In this document: positions 26,401 through 42,382 of the stretch, one piece after another
Layout: every line of letters begins with the position of its first letter
Position numbering within the stretch: position 1 is the stretch's first letter
Assembly: GCA_024958655.1 (NCBI GenBank)
Contig: JANWUR010000014.1
Coordinates: 1 to 64,000, forward strand
Source of the DNA: Cyanobium sp. FGCU6
Lineage (GTDB): Bacteria; Cyanobacteriota; Cyanobacteriia; PCC-6307; Cyanobiaceae
Direction: 5' to 3'
DNA: 64,000 bases
Notes under the pieces: model-generated
Seen by the model: the letters and a program-made list of their open reading frames with translations, nothing else
What the model was told of the DNA's origin: nothing
Databases searched by the model: none
Position numbers and translations under genes: made by a program

Positions 26401-26527
26401 GCTCCGATGGGGTGAAACGTATCGCCGGCCTCGCCCTTCTGGCGCGCGCCATCCTGGCGCAAAGCACAGCAGCTGAACCGTGCACCAGGATCGACCCTAC
26501 CCTGGAGCAGACCAACGGCCTGGTGTG

Positions 26528-27169: not shown

Positions 27170-27173
27170 GGCC

Positions 27174-27312
27174 TCATCGCCTCCCCACCACCAGAGCGAT
27201 CACCGCGCCGGTCAGCGTCAGAGCGGTGTGATCCAGCCGGTTGCGGAACAGCGCCACGAAAGGTCCCAGCGGATAGGCCAGCCAGAACAACGCCGGCCCC
27301 AGGAGCGTGAAC
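27174..27312 (-). pseudogene. C-terminal fragment of a membrane protein
   Basis: On the minus strand, FTLLGPALFWLAYPLGPFVA and TALTLTGAVIALVVGRR form two hydrophobic segments ending at a stop at 27174. The upstream side runs directly into Rpn-like copy D sequence of the other strand at about 27312, so the rest has been lost. I cannot name the family. Confidence 0.4.
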
Positions 27313-27822
27313 AGGAGGTGCAGATGCACGGCAAGGGTGGGTTCAAGTTGCACGCGCAGGTGCAGCACCTGGCCGTGGTGATGCTGGTGCCGCACCGGCG
27401 CCTCAACCTCAGTCCCGCCCTGTTGCCGAAGCCGCTGCAGGCCAGCTCGCAACAGATCCTGGCGCGCCTGCTAGATCTGTTTTCTGCCGTTCAAACGATC
27501 CTTTTGGAGCGGCTTCCCCCACTCACTAGCACTCCATCGTGAGGAACGAATCATGGAGTTCGCCACCATTCCCGCCAAAGACCTGCGCCACACCCGCGTC
27601 GCCCAGGAGTGGATTGAGGAAGGCCGGCTGGAGGGTCGCCAGGAAGGCGAAGCCAAAGTGGCCCTTCGCCTGCTCAACCGTCGCTGCGGCCCTCTCAGTG
27701 ACGCCACGACAGCCCGGATCAAGACGCTGCCGCTGGCGCAACTGGAAGCCCTGGCGGAGGCACTGCTCGATTTCAGCGGCCCCGCCGACCTGGCCGCCGG
27801 GCTGGCCGAGCACGGCGGCTGA
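27310..27822 (+). pseudogene. Rpn-like (DUF2887) copy D, truncated
   Basis: Begins inside the family at EVQMHGKGGFK, skips to HAQVQHLAVVMLVPHRRLNL and then from PKPLQ directly to ASSQQILARLLDLFSAVQ, so three blocks are missing. A frame change near 27540 separates it from MEFATIPAKDLRHTRVAQEW, which runs intact to 27822 with the linker EGRLEGRQEG. N-terminus and active-site Asp are absent. The kinase remnant at 27960 follows. Confidence 0.8.
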
Positions 27823-27959
27823 AGCGCAAGCTCTGCCAGGGCTGCAGGTCGTGCAGAACCCGCTGCTTCAGCGGGATCCAGGCTTCTCTTGGCCCAACCC
27901 CCTCGCCAGGCTCAGTCCCCTGCCGGCCGCGAGCGGAGTGCCGCCGAATCCCCCACCGC

Positions 27960-28256
27960 GGCCCCCAGCCCCCCGCCCTGCAGCTGATCCAGCAGGAGGC
28001 CGAGCGCATGGGCACGTTGGTGAGCGACCTGCTCGATCTGGCCCGCAACGATTCCGGCCGCCTGCAGCTCCAGCTGGCCGCCACCCTTGAGCCGCCCGTC
28101 GCCCTCGCCGACCCCCACCGCCTGCAGCAGTGCCTCACCGCCCTGGTGGACAACGCCCTGCTCTATACCGACGGCTCGGTGGTCCTCACCGCCAGCAGCG
28201 GCGCCGACTTCCAGCTGCTGCTGCCGCCGGTGAAGCCGTTGGGGCCGATAAGCTGA
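27960..28256 (+). pseudogene. Second histidine kinase remnant
   Basis: The open frame from ATG 28008 reads MGTLVSDLLDLARNDSGRLQ and LTALVDNALLYTDGSVVLTA, then jumps straight to SGADFQLLLPPV. The HisKA tail, N-box and last strand remain, but the D/F/G boxes are deleted. The preceding 50 bp match the HisKA part of the remnant at 24440. The terminal codons overlap the palindrome in front of the AbrB-type antitoxin gene. Confidence 0.75.
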
Positions 28257-28273
28257 AGTTCGGAATTTCAGCT
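28251..28273. promoter_or_regulatory. Putative operator AGCTGAA-N9-TTCAGCT
   Basis: A perfect 7-bp inverted repeat with a 9-bp spacer, 11 bp upstream of the AbrB-type antitoxin start. Position and symmetry suggest antitoxin autoregulation. Confidence 0.5.
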
Positions 28274-28284
28274 TCCTTGGGCGA

Positions 28285-28545
28285 ATGGGCGACCTCCGGC
28301 GAGACGTGCTCACGGTTTCCAGCAGGGGGCAGATCACCCTGCCTGCTGGGATGCGCAAGCATCTGGGCATTGCTCCTGGCAGTGCTTTGATCGTTGAAGA
28401 ACTCGAGGGCGAGCTGCGCCTCAAGCCAGCTGCTGTGATTGAGGTTGAGCTTTACAGCGATGCGCAGATCACGGAGTGGGACCGTGCCGATGTGCTCACG
28501 CCATCCGACCGCGACGCGATTCTCCAGCGCATCAGTAAACGGTGA
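28285..28545 (+). CDS. AbrB/SpoVT-type antitoxin
   Basis: An 86-residue protein with a swapped-hairpin AbrB fold: LTVSSRGQITLPAGMRKHLG, then APGSALIVEELEGELRLKPA. A charged C-terminal tail (DRADVLTPSDRDAILQRIS) would wrap the toxin. Its stop overlaps the PIN toxin start region (GTGATG), a normal translationally coupled VapBC layout. The inverted repeat at 28251 is the probable operator. Confidence 0.85.
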   Translation: MGDLRRDVLTVSSRGQITLPAGMRKHLGIAPGSALIVEELEGELRLKPAAVIEVELYSDAQITEWDRADVLTPSDRDAILQRISKR

Positions 28546-28946
28546 TGCGTCTGTTTCTTGACGCCAATGTGATATTCACCGCTGCCCACAATCCCAATGG
28601 CAAAGCAGCCTTCTTGATCAGCCTGGCTGCTGACGCAGGCCTGCAGTTCATCACGAGTGACTACGCATTGGAGGAGGCAAGACGCAATCTCTCCCGCAAG
28701 GCTCCCGATGCTCTTCACTCACTCGATGCCATGGTCGACGCCTTTCGTGTGGTGCCTGACTATCCCGCCCTGCCCTGTCCTGATGCTCTGCCCGAAAAGG
28801 ATCGCCCCATCTTCCGTGCAGCAAGGGCCTCTGCCGATGTCTTGCTAACTGGTGATTTGCGTGATTTTGGTCCCTTGATGAATGCCCCTGATCGCACCGA
28901 TGGGTTGCTGATTCAGACCGTCGCTGAGTTCCTGAATCGCCTCTGA
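28545..28946 (+). CDS. PIN-domain toxin (VapC family)
   Basis: A 133-residue PIN protein. RLFLDANVIFTAAHNPNG has the first Asp, ITSDYALEEARRNL the Glu, PEKDRPIFRAARASADVLL and TGDLRDFGPL the last acidic sites. ATG 28545 is chosen over the overlapping GTG 28542. The active-site set looks complete, and it is paired with the AbrB-type antitoxin just upstream. Confidence 0.85.
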   Translation: MRLFLDANVIFTAAHNPNGKAAFLISLAADAGLQFITSDYALEEARRNLSRKAPDALHSLDAMVDAFRVVPDYPALPCPDALPEKDRPIFRAARASADVLLTGDLRDFGPLMNAPDRTDGLLIQTVAEFLNRL

Positions 28947-29005
28947 CCTGCTCACCCCCGCGGTGGGCCCTCCTTGAGCATCAAGCCCACGCCGCGCATC
29001 GTCCG

Positions 29006-29398
29006 GTGCGGCCGGAGGCCGAGCTGCAGGCCAGCTCGCAACAGATCCTGGCGCGCCGGCCGGATCTGCTTTCAGCCGTTCAAACTATCCTTCTGGAGCG
29101 GCTTCCCTTACTCACTCGCGAGGACCTCATGGAGTTCGCCACCATTCCCGCCAAAGACCTGCGCCACACCCGCGTCGCCCAGGAGTGGATTGAGGAGGGC
29201 CGGCAGGAGGGCGAAGCTCGTGGCGAGGTCAAGGTGATCCTTCGCCTGCTCAACCGTCGCTGCGGCCCCCTCAGCAACGCCACCGCAGCCCGGATCAAGG
29301 CGCTGCCGCTGGAGCAGCTGGAGGCCCTGGCCGAGGCACTGCTCGATTTCAGCGGCCCCACCGACCTGGCCGCCTGGCTGGCCGAGCACAGCGGCTGA
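29006..29398 (+). pseudogene. Rpn-like (DUF2887) copy E, 3' fragment
   Basis: Only the C-terminal 130 residues survive: VRPEAELQASSQQILARRPD, LRHTRVAQEWIEEGRQEGEA, NRRCGPLSNATAARI and DFSGPTDLAAWLAEHSG. The nuclease core is absent, since similarity starts abruptly at about 29006. DNA identity to copies A-C over the first 200 bp is nearly complete. It closes the 22-29.4 kb array. Confidence 0.85.
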
Positions 29399-29737
29399 TG
29401 CGCAAGCTCTGGCAGGGCTGCAGGTCGTGAGGCCCTGTCCAGCTCCGAAAGCCGATGGCGACAACAGACCCAACGCGCCCGCCCGGCACAGCAACATGGG
29501 CAAAGCCCTGGGTTTGATTCAGCCAAATGATGTATCGGCACTGGCTTCGGGAAGCCTGGCTTTCGGGGGGCCCATGCGCATCATCGCTACCCACAGCAGT
29601 GGAAAGGAGGCTGAATCAATCGTGAGAGTGAAGAGTTGCGTTCCCCAGGAAGCCGAGAGTGGCTAGGTGGACAGCTGATTAGGGTAATAGCAAGGCTCTG
29701 GTCCCCTCCCCCCGAGCGTGTCACCTGATGGCGTCAG
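29399..29737. other. Gene-free stretch before the pilin locus
   Basis: The first 60 bp are the common 3' flank of Rpn-like copies (also found after 22993 and 25987). The rest shows no gene on either strand. The promoter for the first minor-pilin operon should lie here, but I see no clear -10/-35 pair. Confidence 0.5.
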
Positions 29738-31564
29738 ATGCGTGGCATGTCCCCCAAAAGCTGGTTGTCGAGGATCCCGCGATCCCGGCCTGAACACCCC
29801 GAGCAGGGCTTCGCCCTGGCCCTGGTGGTGCTGGCCGCCCTGATGCTCACGGCCGGTGGGCTGGCACTGGCGAACCGCTCCAGCCAGGGGCTGCTGGGAT
29901 CGGTGTTTCTGTTGTTTGGCCAGCAGGCCCGCGAGGCCGCCGAGATCGGCGCCACACGCATCGTCACCGAACTCAACAAGCCTCAGAACCGGGGGCTGCT
30001 GCGGGCCCGCGGCAGCAGCATCGAAACCACCCCCTGGCAGGTGGCCGATGTGGGCACCTTCTACAGGTCCAAGTGCCCGGGTGCCGGCGGTTCGGATCTG
30101 GCCACCAACGTCAACATCGGTGCCCCCAGCAGCGGCACCACCTACAGCCGCGTGTTCCTGTTCGCCGATGGTTCGGTGCACAGCAGCCGCATCCGCAACG
30201 GCGAGGCCGCCACCCGCGCCTATCGGCTGATTTCGGTGAGCCGGCGGCCGGAACCTCAGCTCACGATCTTCCAGCCCATCACCCCGCCCAACGGCGAGCT
30301 GGGGCTCGAGGTGGAAGGGGTGGCCCTGCGGCCGGATGGCAGCGTGATCTCCCAGATCCGCCTCAGGAAAGACTTCCAGGTGGTGCCCAAGTGCTGTGGC
30401 GTTTCCTTCGGCGGCAGCCACGGCAACGTGAGCTACGCCACCAACGCCACCACCTCCGCCAACGCCTGCCTCAACGAGAACACCATGCTGGGGCTGGGGT
30501 TCCTCGGCGGCACCGGCGACAGCACCGGCACGATCGAGCTGGGCGGCTCCTCCACGGTGACACAGCAGAGCAGCAGCACCGTGCCGGTCTATATCCCCAC
30601 GATCTTCTGCCTCGCCGATGCCAATGGCGGCTGCAACGCCTCCAACGTGTCGTCGTCGCAGCAGCAGATCTCCGTGAGCCTGATCCATCCGCGACCAACA
30701 GATTTTCCGGTGGCCAAGGAGTTTCCCGCGGCCCTGGTGAACCAGCTGCAGATGAACAACGTGCCCGGAATCCTGAGCCGGCCCAACTGGAACGCCAGCA
30801 CCAACCAGTTCATCGGCTGCTTTCGTGATGCCCTCGCCGATGCCAACGACCCCGATCCCAGCACGGTGGGATCGAACGGCAGGAAGTGCCGCGTCTGGAT
30901 GATCAACGCCAACGCCAACAATCTTCCTGGCTACTGCGCCCGTGATCCGCTCACCGCGGAAACCCACTGCGTGGTGGGGCGCATCACCCTGAAGTCATCC
31001 GACCTGGTGGTGATCACGGGCACCAGCAGGCTGCGGCTGTACTTCAGCCAGCCCAGCACCAGCGCCAGCGACTACCTCATCGACGGCTTCCAGGGCAGCA
31101 ATGCCATCTACCACTGCCGCGCGGCGGGATTCGATGAGAACGCCGGCCGGCCCCTGTGCACCGTGCCCGCCGCCAGCACCAGAGACCTGGCCCTGTTCGG
31201 CTGCAACGTCACCCACAGTGATGGCAGCAGCCACCCCGCCGGCACCTACCCCTACCCCGACTGCGCCGCCCCCGGCACGCAGAACATTCGCCTGGTGGGC
31301 GATGCCGGCGGCCTGAACATGTTCGCCTACTTCCCCAACGGCCACGTGGAGTTCTACGGCAACACCTTCTTCGAGGGGGTGGTGTGGGCCAACACCATCA
31401 CCGCCACGGGCAGTGTGCAGTGGGTCGTGCCCGGATCGGGCCTCAGCGATGTGATGGTGTACATGGGATTGCTGCCGGGCAGCGACACCACCACCAGCCG
31501 CAATCCGATCCTGTTCGATGCCATCGCCCGCTCCAGCAATCGCTTCCGCTGGGTGGGCCGGTGA
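29738..31564 (+). CDS. Large PilX-like minor pilin/pilus-tip protein (module 1)
   Basis: A 608-residue protein with a short basic leader and one hydrophobic N-terminal helix (GFALALVVLAALMLTAGGLALA), like PilX/GspK-type pilin-like proteins but much larger. After AREAAEIGATRIVTELNKP comes a long Ser/Thr/Asn-rich, Cys-containing extracellular part with PKCCGVSFGG near residue 217. Its end (FYGNTFFEGVVWANTITATG) is shared in pattern with the paralogue at 34360. It probably caps or decorates a type IV pilus. It is first gene of an operon whose next three genes each overlap the preceding one. Confidence 0.75.
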   Translation: MRGMSPKSWLSRIPRSRPEHPEQGFALALVVLAALMLTAGGLALANRSSQGLLGSVFLLFGQQAREAAEIGATRIVTELNKPQNRGLLRARGSSIETTPWQVADVGTFYRSKCPGAGGSDLATNVNIGAPSSGTTYSRVFLFADGSVHSSRIRNGEAATRAYRLISVSRRPEPQLTIFQPITPPNGELGLEVEGVALRPDGSVISQIRLRKDFQVVPKCCGVSFGGSHGNVSYATNATTSANACLNENTMLGLGFLGGTGDSTGTIELGGSSTVTQQSSSTVPVYIPTIFCLADANGGCNASNVSSSQQQISVSLIHPRPTDFPVAKEFPAALVNQLQMNNVPGILSRPNWNASTNQFIGCFRDALADANDPDPSTVGSNGRKCRVWMINANANNLPGYCARDPLTAETHCVVGRITLKSSDLVVITGTSRLRLYFSQPSTSASDYLIDGFQGSNAIYHCRAAGFDENAGRPLCTVPAASTRDLALFGCNVTHSDGSSHPAGTYPYPDCAAPGTQNIRLVGDAGGLNMFAYFPNGHVEFYGNTFFEGVVWANTITATGSVQWVVPGSGLSDVMVYMGLLPGSDTTTSRNPILFDAIARSSNRFRWVGR

Positions 31565-32109
31565 CGCGCCCCCGCCCACCGGCAGCGGCCGGCTACAGCC
31601 TCACGGAACTGCTGGTGAGCGCCATGCTGTTCGCGATCATCGGCACCGGCAGCGTCACCCTGTTCAGTCTCACGGTGCGGCAGCAGACCCGCACCGAGGG
31701 CGTGCAGGCCGAACAGTTCGCCATCAGCATCGATGAAGCCAACCTCCAGCGGATGAACGATCGCTTCACCTGCCAGTCGGGCACCTGCGTGATCAAGACG
31801 GGCACCGCTCCCAACCAGAACCAGTACTACCCGCTGGTGGGCAGCGCGGCCGAAACCACCTTCCTCGGCCTCTGCAGGCCCGCCAGCGGCAGCGCCGCAG
31901 CCCTGGCCGATCCCCTGGTGACCCTGATCAACGCCGTCCCCGCCACCGCCCAGATGGCCCAGCTGGGCATCAGCCGCCAGGCGGTGCGGGAAGCCGAAAC
32001 CATCGGCCAGCCCTTCAGCCATCGCTACACGATCACCTGGCGCTCGAGCGACAACACGATCCTGCGCCAGAACACCCTGGTGCCCACCACGGCAGGCTGG
32101 TGCCCATGA
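31561..32109 (+). CDS. Prepilin-like minor pilin ending in WCP (module 1)
   Basis: A 182-residue protein starting at GTG 31561 (GTGA overlap). Leader VTRPRPPAAAG| then YSLTELLVSAMLFAIIGTGS, with Glu at +5: a class III signal peptide. The globular domain has FTCQSGTCV and a C-terminal TAGWCP. The paralogue at 36161 has the same length class and the same WCP ending. The likely role is an initiating or tip minor pilin, PilV/PilI-like in position. Confidence 0.85.
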   Translation: MTRPRPPAAAGYSLTELLVSAMLFAIIGTGSVTLFSLTVRQQTRTEGVQAEQFAISIDEANLQRMNDRFTCQSGTCVIKTGTAPNQNQYYPLVGSAAETTFLGLCRPASGSAAALADPLVTLINAVPATAQMAQLGISRQAVREAETIGQPFSHRYTITWRSSDNTILRQNTLVPTTAGWCP

Positions 32110-32642
32110 GAGGGCCGTCCGGCTACAGCCTCACCGAGCTGATGGTGGTGGTGGCCATCCTCGGCCTGATCGGTGTCACCAGCATCACCGGGGCCCTCGA
32201 GCAGTGGCGCACCGAACAGTCGAGTGCGGTGGCCAATGAACTCTCCGGCTGGCTTGGCAGCGTCCATCGGGCCGCCCTGCGGGGTAAGCGCTGCGAAATC
32301 ACCATCGCCCCCGACACCTCCCCTGATCCCCTCACCGGCAATGCGGTGGCCGCCACGGCCCGGGAGGTCGACGACACCGACCCGATCGACAACGGCTGCC
32401 TGGCCCACTCGCCGCTGGTGATCCATGCGGTGTCCAGCGGCACCAGCTTCACCCTCACCCCCCGCAACACCACCTTCTCCTTCACCCCCAGGGGCACGGT
32501 GGCGGAGGCCAGCCTCAACCCGCTCGAGTTCCGCATCGCCATCACCACCGGCGGTGCCATTCACTGCGTGCGCCTGATGGGCCTGCTCGGGCTGGTGAAG
32601 ATCGGCCACGTGGCCGCCGGCAGCTGCCACTACCGCTCATGA
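32106..32642 (+). CDS. FimT/GspH-like minor pilin (module 1)
   Basis: A 178-residue prepilin. MRGPSG| is the leader, then YSLTELMVVVAILGLIGVTS with Glu +5. WLGSVHRAALRGKRCEI and FTLTPRNTTFSFTPRGTVAE are characteristic of GspH/FimT pseudopilins, and CVRLMGLLGLVKIG closes the fold. ATG 32106 overlaps the preceding stop (ATGA). FimT-like pilins in other bacteria contribute to pilus assembly and DNA binding; here the function is by family only. Confidence 0.85.
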   Translation: MRGPSGYSLTELMVVVAILGLIGVTSITGALEQWRTEQSSAVANELSGWLGSVHRAALRGKRCEITIAPDTSPDPLTGNAVAATAREVDDTDPIDNGCLAHSPLVIHAVSSGTSFTLTPRNTTFSFTPRGTVAEASLNPLEFRIAITTGGAIHCVRLMGLLGLVKIGHVAAGSCHYRS

Positions 32643-33163
32643 AGCGCCGCCGCCGCCCGGGCTTCACGCTGCCCGAACTGCTGATCGCCACCGTGCTGGC
32701 CTGCCTGCTGATGGCCGCCCTGGTGGCGGTGGTGGTGGGCCATGTGCGCTCCCGCGGCAGGATGGAAGCCGTGATGAAACTGCAGGACGACTGGACCCGC
32801 GTTCAGTTCCTGCTCGATCAGGACATCGAGGAATCGATCGCCAGCAGCAACGCCAGCGGCTGCGCGGCTTCCGGCACCCGGCTCACGCTCACCGTGGCCG
32901 GCACGAACCAGCCGATCACCTACTACCTCGATGGCACCAACCTCCGCCGCTGCGGCCCCGCCATCACCGTGACCGGCGAACTCAGCCCCACCCTCACCAG
33001 CGACGACCTGGTGGCCGAGCGTGTCACCAGCTTCGAGGTGGATCTCAGCGATCCGCAGCGCCCCTTCTACACGCTCACCCTCACCGACCCCACCGGGGTG
33101 GTGTACACCAACGGCACCCAGCCCACCGGCGCGATGATGCGCAGCCGCCGGATCACGAACTGA
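32639..33163 (+). CDS. PilW-like minor pilin (module 1)
   Basis: A 174-residue prepilin. MKRRRRPG| leader, then FTLPELLIATVLACLLMAAL with Glu +5. MEAVMKLQDDWTRVQFLLDQDIEE is typical of the long helix in PilW/PilJ-type pilins, followed by YYLDGTNLRRCGPAI. Overlaps the previous stop as ATGA. It is the last pilin of module 1; the next gene, a lipoprotein, starts on its stop codon. Confidence 0.85.
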   Translation: MKRRRRPGFTLPELLIATVLACLLMAALVAVVVGHVRSRGRMEAVMKLQDDWTRVQFLLDQDIEESIASSNASGCAASGTRLTLTVAGTNQPITYYLDGTNLRRCGPAITVTGELSPTLTSDDLVAERVTSFEVDLSDPQRPFYTLTLTDPTGVVYTNGTQPTGAMMRSRRITN

Positions 33164-33702
33164 TGGGGCGAGGCATCGCCCCACGCCGCTGCCTGCTCGC
33201 GGTGCTGCTGCTGCTCGCCGGCGGCTGCGGCCCCGCTGCCGAAAGGGCGCCGCAGGCGGTGAGCGGTCACGGCGAACGGCTCTGCCGCGAACGCCAGGCC
33301 GACCTCCCCCCCGGCACCAGCGCCCTGCAGGCCAGGGGGGTGTACGCGGCCTGCCTGCACACGATCGATCGCGAACTGGCCAGCGGCTCCGCCGCCATCA
33401 GCGCCGACACACCGCCGCCCGCAGGGCTGGCCAGCGCCGAGCAGCGCTACCTGCACTGCCGCCTGCGCCGCGAGGAGATCGCCAGGGCCTACGACGCCTA
33501 CACCCGCGCCGCCTCCGAGTGGACCCACGCCGACAGCGTCTATCCCGACGACGACCCCCGCCACCGGGCCGCCCGCCTGGCCCATCAGCAGGCCGTGGCC
33601 GAGGTGGAGCGCCTGATCCCGCCGGTGCTGCACGGCAGCGAGCCCCTGCTCCCCGACGCCCTCAACCGCTTCCGCCGCTGCGAACGCGAAGCCTTCCACT
33701 AA
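33163..33702 (+). CDS. Putative lipoprotein associated with minor pilins
   Basis: A 179-residue protein. A basic start and hydrophobic segment (CLLAVLLLLAGGCG) end in a lipobox-like LAGGC, though the residue at -3 is Ala rather than the usual Leu. The mature part is charged and rich in Cys-containing helices (RYLHCRLRRE, FRRCEREAFH) with no known domain. The ATG overlaps the preceding stop by one base, so it is transcribed with module 1. It may help pilus assembly at the envelope, but I do not recognise the family. Its stop overlaps the stop of the opposite-strand pilin. Confidence 0.6.
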   Translation: MGRGIAPRRCLLAVLLLLAGGCGPAAERAPQAVSGHGERLCRERQADLPPGTSALQARGVYAACLHTIDRELASGSAAISADTPPPAGLASAEQRYLHCRLRREEIARAYDAYTRAASEWTHADSVYPDDDPRHRAARLAHQQAVAEVERLIPPVLHGSEPLLPDALNRFRRCEREAFH

Positions 33703-34259
33703 GGGCTTCCATGGGCGAGCTCCACGCTGGTGAGCAGCGGCGGCCCCTCGCCGGCGGCACCCTCCAGATGCAGCTGCAGCCTTCCGCCAGCGGCAACCTC
33801 CGCCCGGAAGCCATCCGGAGTCAGCTGGTCCAGCACCACCCGGTTCTGCGCGGCGCCGCTGCTCGGCTGCCCATCGAGGCCATAGGCCGGCCCGCAGCGC
33901 ATCAACACCAAGGGCCGCCAGATGGCACTGGGAGGTGACCCCAGGCTGTAGGTGATCGGTCCGGTGGGCAGCTGCAGCTGCAGCACCGGCGTGCGGCCGC
34001 CCATGGCACAGGCCGCCCCAGGGGCCGCCCCCAGCGTGACCCCTTCGGCGCGCAGCAGTTCGCTGCGCAGCAGCTCGATCAGGCGCCGCTGCAGCAGCGC
34101 CACCCGCTGACGCCGCACCAACCGCTGCAGGCCCTGGCCATCGGCCGCCAGGGCCTGCACCACCACCCCGCAGAGCAGCAACCCCAGCACCAGGGCCAGC
34201 AGCAGCTCGATCAGGCTGAAGCCGCCGCCCCTCCGGAACCGGCCATGCGCACATGTCAT
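33699..34259 (-). CDS. PilW-like minor pilin on the minus strand
   Basis: A 186-residue prepilin. Leader MTCAHGRFRRGG|, then GFSLIELLLALVLGLLLCGV with a Glu in the cleavage-site context. The helix continues (RRQRVALLQRRLIELLRSEL) as in PilW-like proteins, followed by PITYSLGSPPSAIWRPLVLMRCGPAYGLDG. The CGP motif also occurs in the PilW-like members of modules 1 and 2. ATG 34259 is chosen because it gives a normal short leader. It is divergent from module 2 (100 bp) and may be the stranded last gene of the minus-strand module at 38-39.4 kb. Confidence 0.75.
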   Translation of the reverse strand: MTCAHGRFRRGGGFSLIELLLALVLGLLLCGVVVQALAADGQGLQRLVRRQRVALLQRRLIELLRSELLRAEGVTLGAAPGAACAMGGRTPVLQLQLPTGPITYSLGSPPSAIWRPLVLMRCGPAYGLDGQPSSGAAQNRVVLDQLTPDGFRAEVAAGGRLQLHLEGAAGEGPPLLTSVELAHGSP

Positions 34260-34359
34260 CGGGCCCTGCTGCCGCGGATCGTTCGCAGGGTTCCCCCACC
34301 CCGCCGGCGGGATGAAACTTGGCAGAATGAAGCAATGGTGAGAGTAAGGGAGGAAGCGG

Positions 34360-36156
34360 ATGGGGCGTCGAACCGATCCGCGGCTATGGGTGCTGCTGCT
34401 GCTACACACGGGCCGGAGCCGCACCCTCCGCCAGCGTGGTTTCTCGATGGCGGTGGTGCTGCTTGTTCTGCTGGTGGCCGTGGTGGGTGCGGGCAGCCTG
34501 GCCCTGCGCAGCGCTTCGAGCGAATCCGGCGGCCTGAGGCTGAGCGCGAGGCGTCAGGCCCAGGAAACGGCCGAATCGGGAGCCACGGCCATCATCGGCG
34601 AACTCAACAAACCCAGAAACCGAAAACTGCTGGTCTCGGCCACGGCGCCGGAATCATGGGGATCCCAGACCGACACCATTCAGCAGAACCCCTGTGAGCA
34701 GCTGGGTTCCACCGCTGCCGTTCCCCCACTCCCCAGCGCCGCTGCTGCCGGCAGCAATCAGTGGCAAACAGCCTGGCAAGACGGCGGAGCCACCGGCCAG
34801 TACATCCTGCGCGGCGTGCGCCACTCCAACCGCACCCGCAGCGCCACCAGCACCATCAGCTACACCACGGCTGGATCAGGCGGATCCACCCGTACCGACA
34901 GTGGCTATGACCCTGCTGCGTCGAACTTCAGCAGCCTGGTGAACCTCGCTCCAGTTGCTTCTGTTAATCAGGAGAACACCGGCTTCATCCAGCTGGAAAT
35001 ACAGGGCAGGGTGCAGCGCAACAATCAAACCGTGGCCACCGCCACCGTGGTGAAAGAATACGAGGTGATTCCCAAATGCTGCAAACGCTCGTTTTCCGGG
35101 CCGGCCAACAGCGCCGATGGCACGCCTCTGTCCAGCCTGGGTAACGATCTGCGCGCCTGCGATGGCACGGCTGATCTCGGGCTGGTGTTCGGCTTCAACG
35201 GCGGCAGCATCTCCGTGAGTGGCAGTGCGGGTGCTCTCCAGGAGGTGGTGGTGGACTCCTCTGGCGCTTTAGTTCCTGACTACACCAACAGCATCGGCTC
35301 GGTGCTGTGTGTCACCACCTCCTCCACGGCGAGTAACTGCATTGAGCCAGCCAGCACCAACCCGATCCCAGTTCAGGGAGCTGATTCGGTACCGGTGATC
35401 CCCACCATCTTCTCCCCCGACCCTCCGCCCACGATCGGGGCCACCATCGCCACCGCGGGCTCCATCACCACGGGCTACTACCGAGTTAACCCCACCAACA
35501 CCAACGTGATGCAGCGGTGCACTGCATCAGCACCCAGCGGGACCATCACACTGAGTTCGTGCAATACTGTGAATTTCTGTACGCGGGTCACAGGCAGTTC
35601 AATAGCAGATTTTCATTGCCGCGTGACCAATATCTCGTTCAACAGCGGTAGACTTTACTTCGATACCAGCCTCGCCACGATGGCGATCTTCCTTAACGAA
35701 ACCGCTCCATCCAATAATAGTGGCAATATCGGGGATGTGCGCATTGGTGGTTCAGGCGAGCTTCTCCATCGCTTCTGCTCCCCAGCCCCCACTGGTGCTA
35801 ACGGCTGCATCACAGCCGCACCGATTGGCCAGTTCACCCGTCTTTCCTTCCTGGGCAGCCAGACCACCAACGACTTCCAATTTCGTGGCGGAGCAGAGGG
35901 CACCGCCATGTTCATCTACTTGTCGCGTGGAACGGTGCAGATCTCGGGCAACTCAACCGCCCTCGGCACGATTTGGACCAACAATCTCACCATGAACGGC
36001 AATTTCACATCCGGAGCTCCGGCCACCAACTGTGTCATCGCCGCCAATGGGTTCTGCTACATCGTGCGGGGTTCCCTTTCCGGAGGCACAGGCGGCGCCA
36101 CCGCCTTCGTGTTCGACTGGGTGGCCCGTAGCCCGGTCACCACCAGGGTGTACTGA
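34360..36156 (+). CDS. Large PilX-like minor pilin/pilus-tip protein (module 2)
   Basis: A 598-residue paralogue of the protein at 29738, with a Shine-Dalgarno-like GGGAGG 8 bases before ATG 34360. The N-terminal helix FSMAVVLLVLLVAVVGAGSL follows a basic leader. AQETAESGATAIIGELNKPRN matches module 1 almost residue for residue. YEVIPKCCKRSFSG keeps the Cys-Cys pair, and the end (ISGNSTALGTIWTNNLTMNG) is equivalent. The middle is divergent and Ser/Thr/Asn-rich. Codon use is less GC-extreme than in module 1. It is presumably an exported pilus component; the ligand is unknown. Confidence 0.75.
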   Translation: MGRRTDPRLWVLLLLHTGRSRTLRQRGFSMAVVLLVLLVAVVGAGSLALRSASSESGGLRLSARRQAQETAESGATAIIGELNKPRNRKLLVSATAPESWGSQTDTIQQNPCEQLGSTAAVPPLPSAAAAGSNQWQTAWQDGGATGQYILRGVRHSNRTRSATSTISYTTAGSGGSTRTDSGYDPAASNFSSLVNLAPVASVNQENTGFIQLEIQGRVQRNNQTVATATVVKEYEVIPKCCKRSFSGPANSADGTPLSSLGNDLRACDGTADLGLVFGFNGGSISVSGSAGALQEVVVDSSGALVPDYTNSIGSVLCVTTSSTASNCIEPASTNPIPVQGADSVPVIPTIFSPDPPPTIGATIATAGSITTGYYRVNPTNTNVMQRCTASAPSGTITLSSCNTVNFCTRVTGSSIADFHCRVTNISFNSGRLYFDTSLATMAIFLNETAPSNNSGNIGDVRIGGSGELLHRFCSPAPTGANGCITAAPIGQFTRLSFLGSQTTNDFQFRGGAEGTAMFIYLSRGTVQISGNSTALGTIWTNNLTMNGNFTSGAPATNCVIAANGFCYIVRGSLSGGTGGATAFVFDWVARSPVTTRVY

Positions 36157-36160
36157 AGTC

Positions 36161-36808
36161 ATGGGCCTCCACTGGCGATATCAGCTGGATTGCCAACGCC
36201 GAACCAACGCGGGCGGTCAGCGCACTGCTTCGGTCACCGGCTTCACCCTCGTGGAGATGGTGCTGGCCAGCGTTCTGATGGCGGTGATCCTCGGTGGGGC
36301 CGCCGCCACCCTGCTCGTGGCCAACCGCTCCTCCGGCAGGCAAGGGGGGCTGAACGAGCTGGAATCGCTGATCGATCGGGATCTTGCCGCGATCCAGGCC
36401 CTCGACCGTCGCTTCAGCTGCTGCACCGGCAGCCCCTGCACCGCTGACGCCGCCACGATCGCGGCCGCCACCACCTGCCGGGATGCCATCGGAACCGGAA
36501 CCGCCCGGCCGCCCGGCAACGAGAACTTCTACTCCCCGCGGCAGAGCGCCATCCCCACCACCGCCGAAAACTCCGCCTGGACCACCTTCCGCACTGCCTG
36601 TGGCAACGGCACCATCGCCTCCACGTTCCAGGGGCTGCTGCCCACCCTTCCCTCTGCCCAGGCGCCTGCGACCCTGAACCGCGTCTCCGCAGTCACCGAC
36701 AACGCGGCCAACCGACTGCAGCTCACCTACACCGGGTCCAATCAGGGCAGCGTCGTCACCACGCGGGTGGTGAACCTGATCCCCACCGCAGCCAACTGGT
36801 GCCCATGA
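36161..36808 (+). CDS. Prepilin-like minor pilin ending in WCP (module 2)
   Basis: A 215-residue protein from ATG 36161, 4 bp after the PilX-like stop. A long basic leader (QRRTNAGGQRTASVTG|) precedes FTLVEMVLASVLMAVILGGA with Glu +5. DRRFSCCTGSPCTADAA carries several Cys, and the protein ends in LIPTAANWCP, as does its module 1 counterpart (PTTAGWCP). Its stop overlaps the next start as ATGA inside the same TGCCCATGA context in both modules. Confidence 0.85.
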   Translation: MGLHWRYQLDCQRRTNAGGQRTASVTGFTLVEMVLASVLMAVILGGAAATLLVANRSSGRQGGLNELESLIDRDLAAIQALDRRFSCCTGSPCTADAATIAAATTCRDAIGTGTARPPGNENFYSPRQSAIPTTAENSAWTTFRTACGNGTIASTFQGLLPTLPSAQAPATLNRVSAVTDNAANRLQLTYTGSNQGSVVTTRVVNLIPTAANWCP

Positions 36809-37377
36809 TCCGCCAGCGCCTCCCCCGGCAGGGGCGTCATCGCCCTCCCGCGGGTTTCACCCTCACCGAGCTGATGGTGATCATTGCGATCATCGGCATC
36901 CTCAGCGGCATCACGATCAGCAATTCCCTCTCCACCTGGCGTGATGCGCAGGTGAGCGATCTGGCTCTCCAGCTCGCCGGCTGGCTGGAGCAGGTGAGCC
37001 GCTCGCCCGAATCCAGCGGCGGCAGCTGCACCGTCACCTTCGCCAACGGCATCACCGGGGGGATCACCCTCAACAACGGCGCCCAGCTGGCCAGCGTCTC
37101 ACCCGCCTCCTGCTCACCCCAGCCCAGCTTCACCGTGCCCACCCGCTTCGGCAACCAGCAGATCGCCGCAGGGGCTTCAGCGGCCAGCGTGGTGTTCACA
37201 CCGCGCAACGCCATCACCGCCAGCACCGACATCCAGGTGCGCCTCGCCCTGCTGAACCAGGCGCCCGTGCGCTGTGTGCGGCTCTCAGCTGTCCTCGGCC
37301 TGATCCGGTTGGGCCGCAACGACGCCAGTTCCTCCGCCACCACCGCCTGCCCTGACGCCAGCTTCGAGACCATCTGA
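36805..37377 (+). CDS. FimT/GspH-like minor pilin (module 2)
   Basis: A 190-residue prepilin. Leader RQGRHRPPAG|, then FTLTELMVIIAIIGILSGIT with Glu +5. LAGWLEQVSRSPESSGGSC and VVFTPRNAITASTDIQ correspond to WLGSVHRAALRGKRC and FSFTPRGT in module 1, and CVRLSAVLGLIRLG to CVRLMGLLGLVKIG. The shared FTPR and CVRL motifs show they are paralogues at the same operon position. Confidence 0.85.
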   Translation: MIRQRLPRQGRHRPPAGFTLTELMVIIAIIGILSGITISNSLSTWRDAQVSDLALQLAGWLEQVSRSPESSGGSCTVTFANGITGGITLNNGAQLASVSPASCSPQPSFTVPTRFGNQQIAAGASAASVVFTPRNAITASTDIQVRLALLNQAPVRCVRLSAVLGLIRLGRNDASSSATTACPDASFETI

Positions 37378-37380
37378 AGA

Positions 37381-37977
37381 ATGCCCGTCCCTTCTGCCCG
37401 TCACCCCCAGCGCGCGCCAAGCCGCGGCTACACCCTGCTGGAGCTGCTGATCGTGGTGGTGCTGGGTGGGCTGGTGCTGGCGGCCATCACCACGGTGATC
37501 ACCTCCCAGGTGCGGCTGAGCCGTGCCCAGCTGCTCGCCCAGCAACGCCGCAGCGACTGGAGCCGCTTCACCTATTTCCTGGCCAATGAAGTGGGGGAAG
37601 GTCGCCTGGTGCGCACCGACACCCCCGCGCCCACCCTCACCGCCGATGGTTGCACGCTCCCATCCGGCGGCGCGCTGCTGTTCAGCGTCTCGGTGCCGAT
37701 CGCCACCGACACAGGCAACCCTGAGGAACGCAACGTGCACTTCTACACCACCGGCACCGGCACCAACACGGCAATCTTCCGCTGCGGTCCGCCGATCCAG
37801 ACCAGCGGTCGCCTGAACAGCGCCACCACCACCTTCACCCCGGCCCGGCTGCTCGCAGGCATTCCAATCACAGCCGCCGTCGACGCCAACAACGTGTCGG
37901 TCACCCTGACCCCATCGATCACAGGCGCCAACATCGTCCCCTTCGCGGTGCGCACCCGCTCGATCCTGATTCCCTGA
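37381..37977 (+). CDS. PilW-like minor pilin (module 2)
   Basis: A 198-residue prepilin starting 3 bp after the FimT-like stop. Leader ending in APSRG|, then YTLLELLIVVVLGGLVLAAI with Glu +5. RRSDWSRFTYFLANEVGEG and FRCGPPIQTSG parallel DDWTRVQFLLDQDIEE and RRCGPAI of module 1. It ends 6 bp from the convergent stop of the minus-strand FimT-like pilin, so transcripts from both sides meet here; no terminator is evident. Confidence 0.85.
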   Translation: MPVPSARHPQRAPSRGYTLLELLIVVVLGGLVLAAITTVITSQVRLSRAQLLAQQRRSDWSRFTYFLANEVGEGRLVRTDTPAPTLTADGCTLPSGGALLFSVSVPIATDTGNPEERNVHFYTTGTGTNTAIFRCGPPIQTSGRLNSATTTFTPARLLAGIPITAAVDANNVSVTLTPSITGANIVPFAVRTRSILIP

Positions 37978-37982
37978 GTGCT

Positions 37983-38507
37983 TCACAGCAGCGGATCGGG
38001 CTCACAGCCCGCCGGCCCCTGCCGGCCCACCCGCGTGACCCCCAGCGGCAGCGACACCACCACGCAGCGCACCAGCGCCTCACCGCTCACCTGCAGCTGC
38101 ACGCTGCCGCCATCAAGCACCAGGCCGTTGCTGGTGAACCGCACCGCCGCCGGCAGGTTGTGGGCGATCGCGATCCCGCCCGGCAGCACGCCCTCATCCA
38201 GGGCCAGCTCCACCCCCTCACAGGCCGGCAGCCCGCTGCCTTCGGGTGCCCGCCAGCCGGTCTCCGCCAGCGCCAGCGCACAGGGGGCACCCGTGCGCTG
38301 GGCGGCGCTGCGGCCCAGTTCCAGTCCCAGCAGCACCCGCCGGGTGGCATTCTCCAGCCGCAGCAGGGCCAGCCCCCGGCCGCCGGCCCCGATCGCCAAC
38401 GACGCCAGCAACGCCAGGATCACCGCCGCCAGCAGCAGCTCCGCCAGGCTGAAGCCCGCCGCTTCCCGCCGGCGCGCCGCTCCCCGCCGCCGCTCAGGTC
38501 GCGCCAT
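37983..38507 (-). CDS. FimT/GspH-like minor pilin (minus-strand module)
   Basis: A 174-residue prepilin. Leader RRREAAG|, then FSLAELLLAAVILALLASLA with Glu +5. LENATRRVLLGLELGRSAAQ, CALALAETGW and AVRFTSNGLVLDGG fit FimT/GspH, and LPLGVTRVG corresponds to the conserved C-terminal strand. It overlaps the upstream pilin gene by 14 bp. In the other two modules the gene after FimT is PilW-like; here that place is taken by the convergent module 2. Confidence 0.85.
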   Translation of the reverse strand: MARPERRRGAARRREAAGFSLAELLLAAVILALLASLAIGAGGRGLALLRLENATRRVLLGLELGRSAAQRTGAPCALALAETGWRAPEGSGLPACEGVELALDEGVLPGGIAIAHNLPAAVRFTSNGLVLDGGSVQLQVSGEALVRCVVVSLPLGVTRVGRQGPAGCEPDPLL

Positions 38508-38898
38508 CCGCCCCTCCGCTGCAGAACCCCAGGGCCGCCGGGCTGAACCAGCGCCGGCGATCCTCCGCCTGCCCGTCCACGGCCACCGTCACCCACACCC
38601 CTTCGCCGTTGCCATCCGGCACCACCTGCCGCACCACTCCCTCGCCCGCAGGGATGGCTTCCACCATCTCCTCCAGGGTGTGCAGAGCGCTGGCGCAGTC
38701 GCCCCCCGCAGGCGACTGCGCTCCCTCCGCCCGCAGGCGCAGATCCACCGCATTGAGTTCGGCATCGATCCGATCCAGGCTGCGCTCCTGGGCGGCCCGG
38801 CGCACCTCCGCCGTCAGTCCCAGCGACCAGATCCCGAGCGACGCCGTGGCCACCATGGCGAACAGCAGGCTGGCCACCACGCTCTCCAGCAGGGTCAT
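38494..38898 (-). CDS. Minor pilin without a visible leader peptide
   Basis: A 134-residue protein. The only credible start, ATG 38898 (ATGA overlap with the upstream stop), begins directly at MTLLESVVASLLFAMVATAS, which is where a mature pilin would begin (Glu at position 5). No basic leader precedes it; upstream codons in frame (RTGSAGGDA) have no start codon. The pilin-type helix and downstream acidic domain (LDRIDAELNAVDLRL, DGQAEDRRRWFSPAA) are otherwise normal. It may be an unprocessed pilin-like protein or may use an unusual start. It is equivalent in position to the WCP pilins. Confidence 0.7.
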   Translation of the reverse strand: MTLLESVVASLLFAMVATASLGIWSLGLTAEVRRAAQERSLDRIDAELNAVDLRLRAEGAQSPAGGDCASALHTLEEMVEAIPAGEGVVRQVVPDGNGEGVWVTVAVDGQAEDRRRWFSPAALGFCSGGADGAT

Positions 38899-39413
38899 GG
38901 CGTCACCCCCCGCAGACCCAGTCCGCGCAGATCGGCCGCACGCAGCGGATCTCCGGTCAGCGTGAGCGCGAAGGCCGCCCGGCGCGGCGGTTCCTCGGGC
39001 GGAACGGATCCCGCCGGCGCCTGGGCCTCCAGCAGCAGGTCCGCTCCCAGCCCACCATCGGCCCCGGCTGGTCCGGGCTGCCAATCGATCAGCCGTACCA
39101 GCCCCTCAGGTCCCAGGCTCTCCAGCAGCTGGGCCAGCTCCGCAGGATCCGCACACGCAAGGCCCGCCGTGGACCAGCTGGCCAGGGGCAAGGCCAGCAG
39201 GCAGCCATGCTGCCGGCTGATCGTGCCCACCAGCCGATGGGCCGCCGAGGCCAGCCGATCCTCCGCCTGCCGCAGCCGCAGCACCACCGCCGTCTGCTGC
39301 CGCGCCGCCAGCCCCACCGTCTGCAACGCCAGGCTGCCCAGCAGCAGCCCGAACGCCCCCAACAACGCCAGCGGCAGGGCAAACCCGGCCGACTGTTTCT
39401 GCATCCTTGCCAT
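38895..39413 (-). CDS. PilX-like minor pilin (minus-strand module, first gene)
   Basis: A 172-residue protein. MARMQKQSAG precedes FALPLALLGAFGLLLGSLAL, a hydrophobic helix without the pilin Glu+5, as in the PilX-like proteins of modules 1 and 2 (GFALALVVLAALML). Unlike those it is short and lacks the long extracellular part. AEDRLASAAHRLVGTISRQH recalls AREAAEIGATRIVTEL at the same position. It is the first gene of a minus-strand set with the same order as the other modules. An ATG at 39404 is an alternative start. Confidence 0.7.
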   Translation of the reverse strand: MARMQKQSAGFALPLALLGAFGLLLGSLALQTVGLAARQQTAVVLRLRQAEDRLASAAHRLVGTISRQHGCLLALPLASWSTAGLACADPAELAQLLESLGPEGLVRLIDWQPGPAGADGGLGADLLLEAQAPAGSVPPEEPPRRAAFALTLTGDPLRAADLRGLGLRGVTP

Positions 39414-39465
39414 GGCTCATTCGCGTTCGGCCCCGCCAGGATTCCCACGGGCGGGCGGCTGGGGT

Positions 39466-39701
39466 CATGGCCCAGGTCCTGATCCGGCAGCTCGACGGAT
39501 CAGGTGGTGGAGGCGCTCAGGGCGCGCGCCCGGGCCCAGGGGCTCTCCCTCGAGCAGAGCCTGCGCGATCTGCTCATCGCGGCCGCCCGGCAAGGCGAAT
39601 CCCTGCGCGACGATCTGGCGCGTGTGCGGGCCACCACACCGCTCGCCGGTCGCAGCCTCGATGTGGCGGCCCTGATCCGCGCCGATCGCGATGGCCGCTG
39701 A
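39466..39701 (+). pseudogene. FitA-like antitoxin with frameshift
   Basis: ATG 39466 reads MAQVLIRQLD, the ribbon strand of a FitA-type antitoxin. An extra G near 39497 then shifts the frame. Removing it gives DQVVEALRARARAQGLSLEQ followed by SLRDLLIAAARQG, a full RHH antitoxin ending at 39701. As it stands only a start inside the domain (GTG 39504) could be used, without the DNA-binding strand. Confidence 0.7.
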
Positions 39702-39996
39702 GCCCGGCACCTGGGTGGTGGATGCCTCGGTGGCCTTCGGCTGGTTTGCCGCCGTGCCCGGCTCCGATCAGGCCGTGCGTCTGCTCGACGGCGGACCGAC
39801 CACCGTGCTGCTGGCGCCGGATCTCGTGCTGGTGGAACTCCTCAATGCCGCCTGGAAGAGCCTGCGCCAGGGAGCCATCCCTGGTGCCTGGAGCTCGATC
39901 ACCCGGCCTATCACTGCCTCTATGTCGCCCTGGCCGAACGGGAACGGGCCACGCTGATCACGGCGGATGAGCATTGCCAAATGGCCGCGCTAAGAT
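39691..39996 (+). pseudogene. PIN toxin with internal deletion
   Basis: The ATG at 39691 overlaps the antitoxin. WVVDASVAFGWFAAVPGSDQ has the first Asp, and LVLVELLNAAWKSLRQGAI the Glu helix. Then the sequence jumps, in another frame, to LELDHPAYHCLYVALAERER and ATLITADEH, the normal PIN C-terminus. About 40 residues are gone and the frame is lost (stop at 39955). Together with the shifted antitoxin this is a dead FitAB-like locus. Confidence 0.75.
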
Positions 39997-40002
39997 TGCC
40001 TT

Positions 40003-40455
40003 ATGGTGCTTCCCGCCACATCGGCTGCAAGCCACTCCTCTCCTCCCCTGGGAGCCGAGAGCATCGTTTTGCCTCTCCAGGCAGGCAGCCCCTCCCAGCT
40101 TCGCGATGCCGTTCGCCAAGGCCTGCCGTTCTCGGCCTTCGAGGCTCTTGCCAAGCAACTGCAGCTCACCCAGCAGCAGGTGACGGCTGTCCTGGGCATT
40201 CCTCCTCGCACACTCGCTCGCAGGAAGGCGTCCCGGCAACTCACTCCTCAGGAATCCGACAGGGTCTATCGGGTGGCAAGGGCGATCGACCAGGCCGCCG
40301 ATTGCCTGGGCTCCGTAGACAAAGCCCATCAGTGGCTCAAGTCGCCCAACCGTGCCCTCGCTGGTGAGATCCCGCTCGATTTGCTCGACACCGAGATCGG
40401 CGCAAGGCAGGTTGAGGAGGTGTTGCTGCGTCTCAACTACGGCATCTACAGCTGA
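40003..40455 (+). CDS. Xre/MbcA/ParS-type antitoxin (RES partner)
   Basis: A 150-residue DUF2384-type antitoxin. An N-terminal HTH-like region (LPFSAFEALAKQLQLTQQQV) continues as LGIPPRTLARRKASRQLTPQ. The ESDRVYRVARAIDQAADCLG helix and QWLKSPNRALAGEIPLDLLD are the toxin-binding domain hallmark of this family. It neutralises and autoregulates the RES toxin encoded next. A short inverted repeat (TAAG-ATTGC-CTTA) overlaps the start region. Confidence 0.9.
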   Translation: MVLPATSAASHSSPPLGAESIVLPLQAGSPSQLRDAVRQGLPFSAFEALAKQLQLTQQQVTAVLGIPPRTLARRKASRQLTPQESDRVYRVARAIDQAADCLGSVDKAHQWLKSPNRALAGEIPLDLLDTEIGARQVEEVLLRLNYGIYS

Positions 40456-40916
40456 TGCGGCTCTGGCGGATCTGCCGCAAGCCATACACCCCCTCCGCGC
40501 TCGATGGCATCGGCGGCCTCTACACCTCCGGGCGCTGGCACCGAAAGGGCCGTCCGATTGTCTACACCGCCACGTCGGCATCTCTGGCGGCGCTCGAAGT
40601 TCTCGTCCACGTCGACCCGCTCACCGCTCCGGACGACCTGCGTTTGATCTCCATCGAGATCCCCGATGATCTGGCCATCGAAGCTCTCGAGCCCTCGGAA
40701 CTTCCAGAAGGCTGGAATGCGGTTCCAGCACCACCAGAACTCCAGGCTCTGGGGGAATCGTGGCTCCTCAGTGGCCGCAGTGCAGCGCTGATCGTGCCTT
40801 CAGCCGTGATCACGATCGAACGGAATGTTCTGCTCAATCCCCTGCATCACCACGCGAAGCGGATCAGCATCCTCAGCGAGGACGACTTCAGCTTCGACCC
40901 AAGACTCCTGGCCTAG
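40455..40916 (+). CDS. RES-domain toxin
   Basis: A 153-residue RES toxin. LWRICRKPYTPSALDGIGGL with the conserved Arg, GRWHRKGRPIVYTATSASLA with the second Arg and Tyr, and ESWLLSGRSAALIVPSAVI with the Ser match the R-E-S residues of the family. LNPLHHHAKRISILSEDDFSFDPRL is the typical C-terminus. RES toxins degrade or modify NAD+ and stop growth. The start overlaps the antitoxin stop (TGATG). Its last 117 bp are antisense to the NTase-like ORF that follows on the minus strand. Confidence 0.9.
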   Translation: MRLWRICRKPYTPSALDGIGGLYTSGRWHRKGRPIVYTATSASLAALEVLVHVDPLTAPDDLRLISIEIPDDLAIEALEPSELPEGWNAVPAPPELQALGESWLLSGRSAALIVPSAVITIERNVLLNPLHHHAKRISILSEDDFSFDPRLLA

Positions 40917-41369
40917 CCACAGCCAGCGAAGATCGCGCTGCAGCGCGGCCGCGAAGGTGGGATTCCACTCCGGCAGCATGTCCCATTCCTGGCGGCTGTA
41001 GACCAGCAGGTCTGTGGCCAGGGGTAGCGCGGAGGTGTCCCAGGGGCGCAGTCGCTCCCAGACAGGCAGGTCGCATTCGCTCAGAACCAACACCAGATCC
41101 AGGTCGCTGCCCACCCCGGCATCACCACGGCCGTAGGAGTCAAACACCCCCACCGCCTCCACCTCCGGATGGCCTTCGGCCTGACGCCGGGCCCACTCGC
41201 CAGCCTGCTCCAGCACGTCCTCAGCGCTCGGCCAGCGCAGCACGGACCCACTCGATGATGGCGGTGGCATGGGCGAAGACCACTCATGCCGATCAGCCTC
41301 CATCGAGGCCTCAGCCTGCTCCAGGTCGCGCAGCGCCTGATTCAGCCAGTCGGCGGAACGTTCGGCCAT
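40800..41369 (-). CDS. Chimeric HEPN fragment + MNT nucleotidyltransferase
   Basis: One frame of 189 residues. MAERSADWLNQALRDLEQAE and DRHEW are the start of a HEPN-domain protein, cut after about 30 residues. At internal Met 34 (ATG 41270) a normal MNT-type nucleotidyltransferase begins: SSGSVLRWPSAEDVLEQAGE, then VGVFDSYGRGDAGVGSDLDL with the GSYGRG-like and D-x-D catalytic motifs, and LLVYSRQEWDMLPEWNPTFA. HEPN (RNase toxin) and MNT (antitoxin) usually are separate genes; the HEPN active site RxxxxH is absent, so this is probably an inactivated pair. The last 35 codons overlap the RES gene antisense. Confidence 0.7.
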   Translation of the reverse strand: MAERSADWLNQALRDLEQAEASMEADRHEWSSPMPPPSSSGSVLRWPSAEDVLEQAGEWARRQAEGHPEVEAVGVFDSYGRGDAGVGSDLDLVLVLSECDLPVWERLRPWDTSALPLATDLLVYSRQEWDMLPEWNPTFAAALQRDLRWLWLGQESWVEAEVVLAEDADPLRVVMQGIEQNIPFDRDHG

Positions 41370-41435
41370 GGAGCCAGTTTGACGACAACGCCTCCCGCTG
41401 TCGCAGACCGACCGCAACAGAGACTGCCCCCTAGA

Positions 41436-41452
41436 GTAGTGAGATCCACTAC
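41436..41452. promoter_or_regulatory. Putative operator GTAGTG-N5-CACTAC
   Basis: A perfect 6-bp inverted repeat with a 5-bp spacer, overlapping the GTG start of the Phd-type antitoxin. It is probably an autoregulatory site. Confidence 0.4.
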
Positions 41453-41714
41453 CTTTGCGACTTTGGCTGAACCCGGAGCTGTCGTCGTCAGTGCGTCCGA
41501 GGCCAATCGCTCCTTCTCCAGCCTGCTGCGGCAGGTGGCTCAGGGACGGAGCTTCACCGTGCTCTCCCACGGCCGCCCCGTCGCCACGATCGGCCCCGCC
41601 GAGGAGGCCACGGCCTCCCGAGGTTCCTCGCGCGGCGCCCTGCTGGCCAGGCTGGCAAATCAGCCCGCGACCGGTGCCCCCCGCAGCTGGCGGCGCGATG
41701 ACCTGTACGACTGA
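41439..41714 (+). CDS. Phd/YefM-type antitoxin
   Basis: A 91-residue antitoxin. VVVSASEANRSFSSLLRQVA is the Phd DNA-binding fold and GRSFTVLSHGRPVATIGPAE its second half; the tail (SRGALLARLANQPATGAP, then WRRDDLYD) binds the toxin. The GTG at 41439 is the best start, although the inverted repeat overlaps it; TTG 41463 is an alternative. The PIN toxin starts 25 bp downstream. Confidence 0.85.
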   Translation: MRSTTFATLAEPGAVVVSASEANRSFSSLLRQVAQGRSFTVLSHGRPVATIGPAEEATASRGSSRGALLARLANQPATGAPRSWRRDDLYD

Positions 41715-41739
41715 GCCATTCTCCTGAGGGTTCCAGCTG

Positions 41740-42309: not shown

Positions 42310-42382
42310 AGCCGTCGCCGCCACCAGCCAGAGCAGAAGCGAAGCTCCCTGGAGCCGTGACTCGCTCCATGAACGCTCCTGA
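42152..42382 (+). CDS. Antitoxin, RHH-type
   Basis: A 76-residue protein. MANLTLALEDALLQRAREAA and LRENTSVNALVRDFLTRYVA form a ribbon-helix-helix domain. The tail (SRFEAVAATSQSRSEAPWSR, ending RDSLHERS) should cover the toxin. It starts inside the extended tail of the upstream VapC and ends overlapping the next toxin reading frame (CTGA). Confidence 0.8.
   Translation: MANLTLALEDALLQRAREAALRENTSVNALVRDFLTRYVAARSRRLEALSRFEAVAATSQSRSEAPWSRDSLHERS

Follow-up and report, generated by a model that had tools for sequence, protein, structure and literature searches.

Three complete core minor-pilin sets lie together in the genome of Cyanobium sp. FGCU6 (Cyanobiaceae) and probably act as alternative tip complexes for the single type IV pilus machine of this cell. 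The window in which they are found, that is, the whole stretch of DNA analysed (64,000 nt of contig JANWUR010000014.1, assembly GCA_024958655.1), contains twelve pilin-like genes, as an earlier note on this DNA had estimated, and these form three A-B-C-D quartets in which type A is a tip pilin without glutamate at position 5 (Glu5), B is PilV/GspI-like, C is FimT/GspH-like and D is PilW/GspJ-like. The locus is a real, well-conserved variant of known minor-pilin systems, laid out as follows:

A1, 29738..31564, plus strand: 608 aa, large tip-pilin-like protein; pilin alpha-1 and a predicted beta-solenoid before the last strand; no Glu5
B1, 31561..32109, plus strand: PilV/GspI-like prepilin; C-terminal WCP; start overlaps the A1 stop
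C1, 32106..32642, plus strand: FimT/GspH-like prepilin; FTPR and CVRL motifs
D1, 32639..33163, plus strand: PilW/GspJ-like prepilin; CGP motif
E, 33163..33702, plus strand: lipoprotein with lipobox LAGGC; accompanies type-1 modules
D3, 33699..34259, minus strand: PilW/GspJ-like prepilin of the core module 3; parted from C3 by module 2
GCGGATCG, 34274..34281, no strand: D3-side copy of an 8-nt direct repeat around module 2
Stretch missing at the C3/D3 junction of relatives, 34282..37990, no strand: module 2 and its upstream region; ends uncertain by tens of bases
A2, 34360..36156, plus strand: 598 aa, large tip-pilin-like protein; GC3 0.73, the minimum of the locus
B2, 36161..36808, plus strand: PilV/GspI-like prepilin; C-terminal WCP
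C2, 36805..37377, plus strand: FimT/GspH-like prepilin; FTPR and CVRL motifs
D2, 37381..37977, plus strand: PilW/GspJ-like prepilin; CGP motif; stop 5 nt from the C3 stop
C3, 37983..38507, minus strand: core module 3 prepilin of the GspH family; scores 31.8 bits with Pfam GspH (cut-off 21)
GCGGATCG, 37991..37998, no strand: C3-side copy of the 8-nt direct repeat
B3, 38494..38898, minus strand: leaderless pilin; ATG at mature +1, overlapping the A3 stop (ATGA)
A3, 38895..39413, minus strand: 172 aa, short tip-pilin-like protein; no Glu5; too short for a solenoid

Coordinates and frames bear out what the earlier note had read from the letters, namely that module 1 (29738-33163) and module 2 (34360-37977) share one gene order, that FTPR and CVRL recur in C1 and C2 and CGP in D1 and D2 (and also in D3), and that the junctions of the second and third genes are alike, both B/C junctions reading TGCCCATGA, where WCP-stop overlaps the ATG of C. 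Other parts of its description hold for modules 1 and 2 but not for module 3: the WCP ending is present in B1 and B2 and absent from B3, and the size of about 600 residues is that of A1 and A2, not of A3. The third set that it placed on the minus strand does have a homologous order according to profiles, but it is not contiguous, D3 lying beyond module 2. Searches for sigma-70-like promoters and terminators returned none exceeding chance, and there were no PHROGs matches.

Judging from their proteins, the three sets are homologous in gene order. Within the locus, the best BLASTP match of each module-1 gene is its positional partner in module 2 (E values of 3e-16 for A, 2e-10 for B, 7e-22 for C and 3e-7 for D). 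Module 3 is joined to these families by profile-profile comparison, with probabilities of 96.5% for B/B3 (E 9.7e-10, 132 columns), 98.9% for C/C3, 98.5% for D/D3 and 93.8% for A/A3, the last over the N-terminal 88 columns; profile-profile cross-matches between non-corresponding types were shorter or weaker. Curated families are less informative. None recognises A1 or A2, and for the B, C and D proteins the matches lie mostly at the prepilin N-terminus, with weak ones to GspH, ComGF or HpsC models, C3 passing the Pfam GspH cut-off and C1 falling below it. The NCBIfam cut-offs for the hormogonium pseudopilins HpsB and HpsC were not reached (19.6 bits for D1 against HpsC, for a cut-off of 200).

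Even so, we assign A, B, C and D to the four core minor pilin types (K, I, H and J, respectively). The A-B-C-D order with a large A is also found in other cyanobacterial families (large-A quartets in six sampled genomes), where one large A has a weak GspK match and the B, C and D proteins resemble PilV/HpsB, GspH/ComGD and HpsC/ComGF, respectively. Each operon has the four pilin genes expected of core minor pilins, overlapping or nearly so, module 3 being split in this genome only. A class III leader ending in Gly or Ala before a hydrophobic helix is present in 11 of the 12 pilins, the exception being B3. Among the homologues in which residue +5 could be read (46 of A, 10 of A3), none has Glu and one has Asp there. 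The lack of Glu5 is a mark of the tip cap (PMC10191384), and the A and A3 proteins thus fit such a role.

The structural model of A1, built from 24 sequences and of moderate confidence (mean pLDDT 63.6), points in the same direction. It consists of an alpha-1 helix (residues 25-79) and pilin-like strands (160-219 and 593-607) with a beta-solenoid between them. Thermus ComZ was its sole Foldseek match under 0.001 (E 3.8e-6, probability 0.97, the next best having 0.06). In VIA-align, residues 250-571 matched an ice-binding protein (Z 11.7, 187 residues, rmsd 3.2) and residues 57-608 matched ComZ (Z 9.5), the high rmsd of the latter alignment (10.8) meaning that domain orientation is not matched. 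We regard A1, with moderate confidence, as a ComZ-like tip pilin whose pilin domain has a beta-solenoid inserted ahead of its last strand. The ComZ solenoid is itself ice-binding-protein-like and interrupts a GspK-like pilin at that point, before the final strand; its authors argue that ComZ, which binds DNA and PilA2, sits at the pilus tip (PMC6561018). No sequence similarity to solved chains accompanies this likeness, a profile search of PDB chains with A1 and A3 having found nothing relevant. Like A1 as modelled, ComZ is a large solenoid pilin adjoining three small minor pilins (PilA1-PilA3 of Thermus thermophilus, PMC6561018), but a single locus is described there, with DNA binding seen in vitro. 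ComZ-like tips would be new in cyanobacteria.

To follow the quartets through other genomes, C3 was used as query, since the large-A alignment was too divergent for a scan of the collection. The scan gave 80 loci, apparently all from Cyanobiaceae (Cyanobium, Synechococcus, Vulcanococcus and other cyanobacterial bins) except for two evidently mislabelled bins. Module 3 is nearly always complete and contiguous in these loci, about half of which have large-A quartets nearby. Fifty complete A-B-C-D quartets could be built from 73 A genes, the remaining A genes being mostly explained by contig-end cuts or joining errors. The search for such quartets proposed in the earlier note finds the same order in Cyanobiaceae as well as in the six genomes of other families. 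In the 36 quartets with a complete large A, all six pairwise distance correlations (A-B, A-C, A-D, B-C, B-D and C-D) were strong (Mantel rank r 0.73-0.82, the highest of 999 permutations being 0.42), which indicates that the quartets evolve as units. The module idea of that note is upheld by this co-divergence together with the recurrent order, the lack of Glu5 in A and the ComZ-like model of A1. A free mixing of subunits between quartets, which would make them a pool of parts rather than separate tips, is improbable: a common pilin architecture and a single assembly machine would allow it, but the correlated distances speak against it, as do the single-gene trees, which part the relatives of module 1 from those of module 2 alike.

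In a tree of concatenated proteins, module 1 falls in a clade with a support of 1.0, and module 2 groups with a module of another genome (G069; support 0.998) that also has a type-1 module. Since modules 1 and 2 are each joined to modules of other genomes, their split is older than these genera, and the trees mark them as old paralogues. A recent tandem duplication is rejected, neither module grouping with its neighbour. Having several quartets is not as unusual as the earlier note supposed, as quartets near the core one are common in the genus: 14 of the 30 A-bearing genus genomes, this one included, have at least 2 A genes, and the extra A genes often lie within 25 kb of the core quartet. 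The lipoprotein gene E follows most type-1 modules, and in Cyanobium FGCU52 its product is 72% identical, above the pilins there. In one locus of the same genus (L062, 12106-15494, genome G062), the type-1 A is seen as two frames about 1.1 kb apart, possibly an insertion or a broken gene.

This distribution bears on whether only module 3 is a working tip set, modules 1 and 2 being expendable paralogues, rarely or never used and kept by chance or being lost. Module 3 is near-universal (D3 is present in 33 of 33 good genus genomes) and A-type genes are patchy (only 23-24 of 33), type-1 proteins diverge faster than C3 and D3, and the GC3 of A2 is lower. On the other hand, all eight frames of modules 1 and 2 are intact and tightly packed, and co-divergence of four genes over old splits implies selection. 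We consider this possibility unlikely, if the least so of the alternatives weighed here.

Module 2 lies reversed between C3 and D3, genes that are direct neighbours in all 79 loci showing both and in 28 further genus loci that have the two. As these two sets share some genomes, the total of about 107 counts loci and not genomes; among them, the split is unique to the window. FGCU52 (locus L081) provides the corresponding empty site: its DNA matches C3 (window 38456-37993), continues for 43 bp and then matches D3-E (34223-33103), the same C3-to-D3 interval being 3.77 kb in the window. On the plus strand of 29000-40000, the octamer GCGGATCG occurs only at 34274 and 37991, on either side of module 2, and its D3-side copy has about the position of the C3 tail in FGCU52, which is what a target duplication would give. 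Such an octamer match has a chance of about 5% between random stretches, and is thus a lead rather than a proof. Neither terminal inverted repeats nor a transposase were seen by eye in the insert. In FGCU52, a further type-2-like quartet adjoins A3 on its upstream side, with a C protein 40% identical to C2. The uniqueness of the nesting among about 107 loci and the draft state of the genome (69 contigs) could suggest an assembly error, but this is very unlikely: the DNA on either side is colinear with that of FGCU52 as far as C3 and D3, no gene is cut and the spacing is clean. The nesting is new, and it shows that such kits can relocate whole.

The other peculiarity of module 3 is B3. In 76 of 79 distinct loci, its start codon (ATG or GTG) is placed at mature +1 on the stop codon of A3, the overlaps being ATGA or GTGA in 65 cases and TGATG in 11 (one locus, L131, could not be parsed and is outside this count). 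Two of the three exceptions have a doubtful A3 call, and the third (L141) keeps an ordinary leader, in which G precedes FGLTE. The residue at position 5 is Glu in 77 of the 79 loci and Asp in 2. In most loci, the 15 codons preceding B3 include no start codon. That B3 generally gains a leader through a frameshift fusing it with A3, or from a non-standard start further upstream, is unlikely, because in six loci a stop lies in frame 1-6 codons before B3; where no such stop closes the frame, as in the window, a non-standard upstream start is possible. In the model of B3 (pLDDT 92.8), one helix (3-61) is accompanied by another and by three strands. Foldseek found no significant match for it, and the top rows of a second structural comparison include pilins (PilX 2ope, Z 6.9; an XcpGHIJK chain, Z 5.3), with scores under 8 being weak; unrelated pantothenate synthetases score similarly, so that no pilin neighbour is decisive.

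We give about even chances to B3 being a true leaderless pilin, translated directly as the mature protein when ribosomes reinitiate at the stop codon of A3, without cleavage by prepilin peptidase, and forming a fixed tip pair with the A3 cap. This would break the rule that defines pilins by a cleaved class III leader, and a family-wide leaderless pilin would test the need for leader cleavage in a subunit entering the pilus. It would also be new: the phrase 'leaderless pilin' was not met in the papers listed by a literature search, which is weak evidence of novelty. B3 above all deserves follow-up, as does the nested module.

The genome encodes one secretin, an adjacent PilB/PilT pair and another ATPase, one prepilin peptidase and ComEC. 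With one secretin and one prepilin peptidase beside the PilB/PilT ATPases, the quartets have a machine in common, and the economical reading is that they are three alternative tip sets for it. We infer that each set probably assembles by itself in the inner membrane and that the resulting tip complex primes the filament; in this complex A, lacking Glu5, would cap the tip, B would pack against A, and C and D would connect A to the shaft. The ComZ-like beta-solenoid of the cap in modules 1 and 2 (modelled for A1) may be an exposed receptor or adhesin, and the family-conserved module 3 would provide a minimal cap with a B3 made directly in mature form. The set expressed would then decide which one caps the pilus, giving alternative pilus tips. 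Module 2 came later between C3 and D3, which leaves D3 dependent for its expression on the 100-bp gap between it and the divergent A2. The extra sets could also be silent or serve a different filament. It is most unlikely that any of the quartets forms part of a secretion pseudopilus instead of a pilus tip: the best recognisable relatives are GspH/GspK-like and HpsB/HpsC-like, but the genome has only one secretin, the cap is ComZ-like by its model, and the HpsB and HpsC scores are far under their cut-offs.

Alternative tips of this kind are plausible and not a new idea. Myxococcus xanthus also has three paralogous four-pilin sets (FimU, PilV, PilW and PilX, with PilY1), amounting to twelve minor pilins on one machine, and either cluster 1 or cluster 3 alone is enough for pili (PMC7541494). 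Unlike those clusters, the Cyanobium sets lie together, with one nested, and have a solenoid in the A1 model. A search for PilY1 gave matches in 0 of 42 genus genomes, where the control set was equally silent. B3 shows no leader, whereas a type III signal peptide is present in every minor pilin of M. xanthus (PMC7541494). The interchangeable Tips of the M. xanthus Kil pilus also come from several paralogous minor-pilin clusters with variable domains, but that pilus is Tad-type, has three-gene tips and serves predation (PMC12075869).

Among cyanobacteria, marine Synechococcus WH7803 carries an A3-B3-C3-D3 quartet and, next to short pilins, one quartet with a large A (locus L158), and C3-D3 are probably its PilA3-PilW. 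The cluster was published as three pairs, PilA1-PilE, PilA2-PilV and PilA3-PilW, and the available portions of that account describe neither the A genes nor a leaderless B3 (PMC7994388). A putative link of the competence pilins PilA3-PilW and RntA-RntB of S. elongatus to module 3 runs only through PMC7994388 and PMC7125226. Synechocystis has several minor-pilin sets, likened here by description (the pilA9-slr2019 operon and pilA5-pilA6; PMC6755745, PMC12288463), and different tip complexes have been hypothesised for it in a 2025 review, which counts the roles of different minor pilins as unresolved (PMC12288463). In cyanobacteria, it is still an open matter how a single pilus machine can be used for adhesion, motility and DNA uptake alike; the quartets are named candidate tip kits in abundant picocyanobacteria, with the A1 solenoid as a modelled candidate for an exposed receptor.

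Toxin-antitoxin genes are dense around the pilin locus (28542-28946 and 40003-42855):

PIN, 28542-28946
Xre-RES pair, 40003-40916
Phd-like antitoxin and PIN, 41286-42309
Another PIN, 42454-42855

Between A3 and the Xre-RES pair, 39440-39970 contains an apparent broken antitoxin/PIN pair in several frames, the one frame checked having no Pfam match. Directly upstream of module 1 (22000-29500) are five tandem, partly decayed DUF2887/DUF4351 copies, spaced by 1.3-1.8 kb and with segments up to 99% identical, and a further DUF4351 gene is found at 45213-46085.
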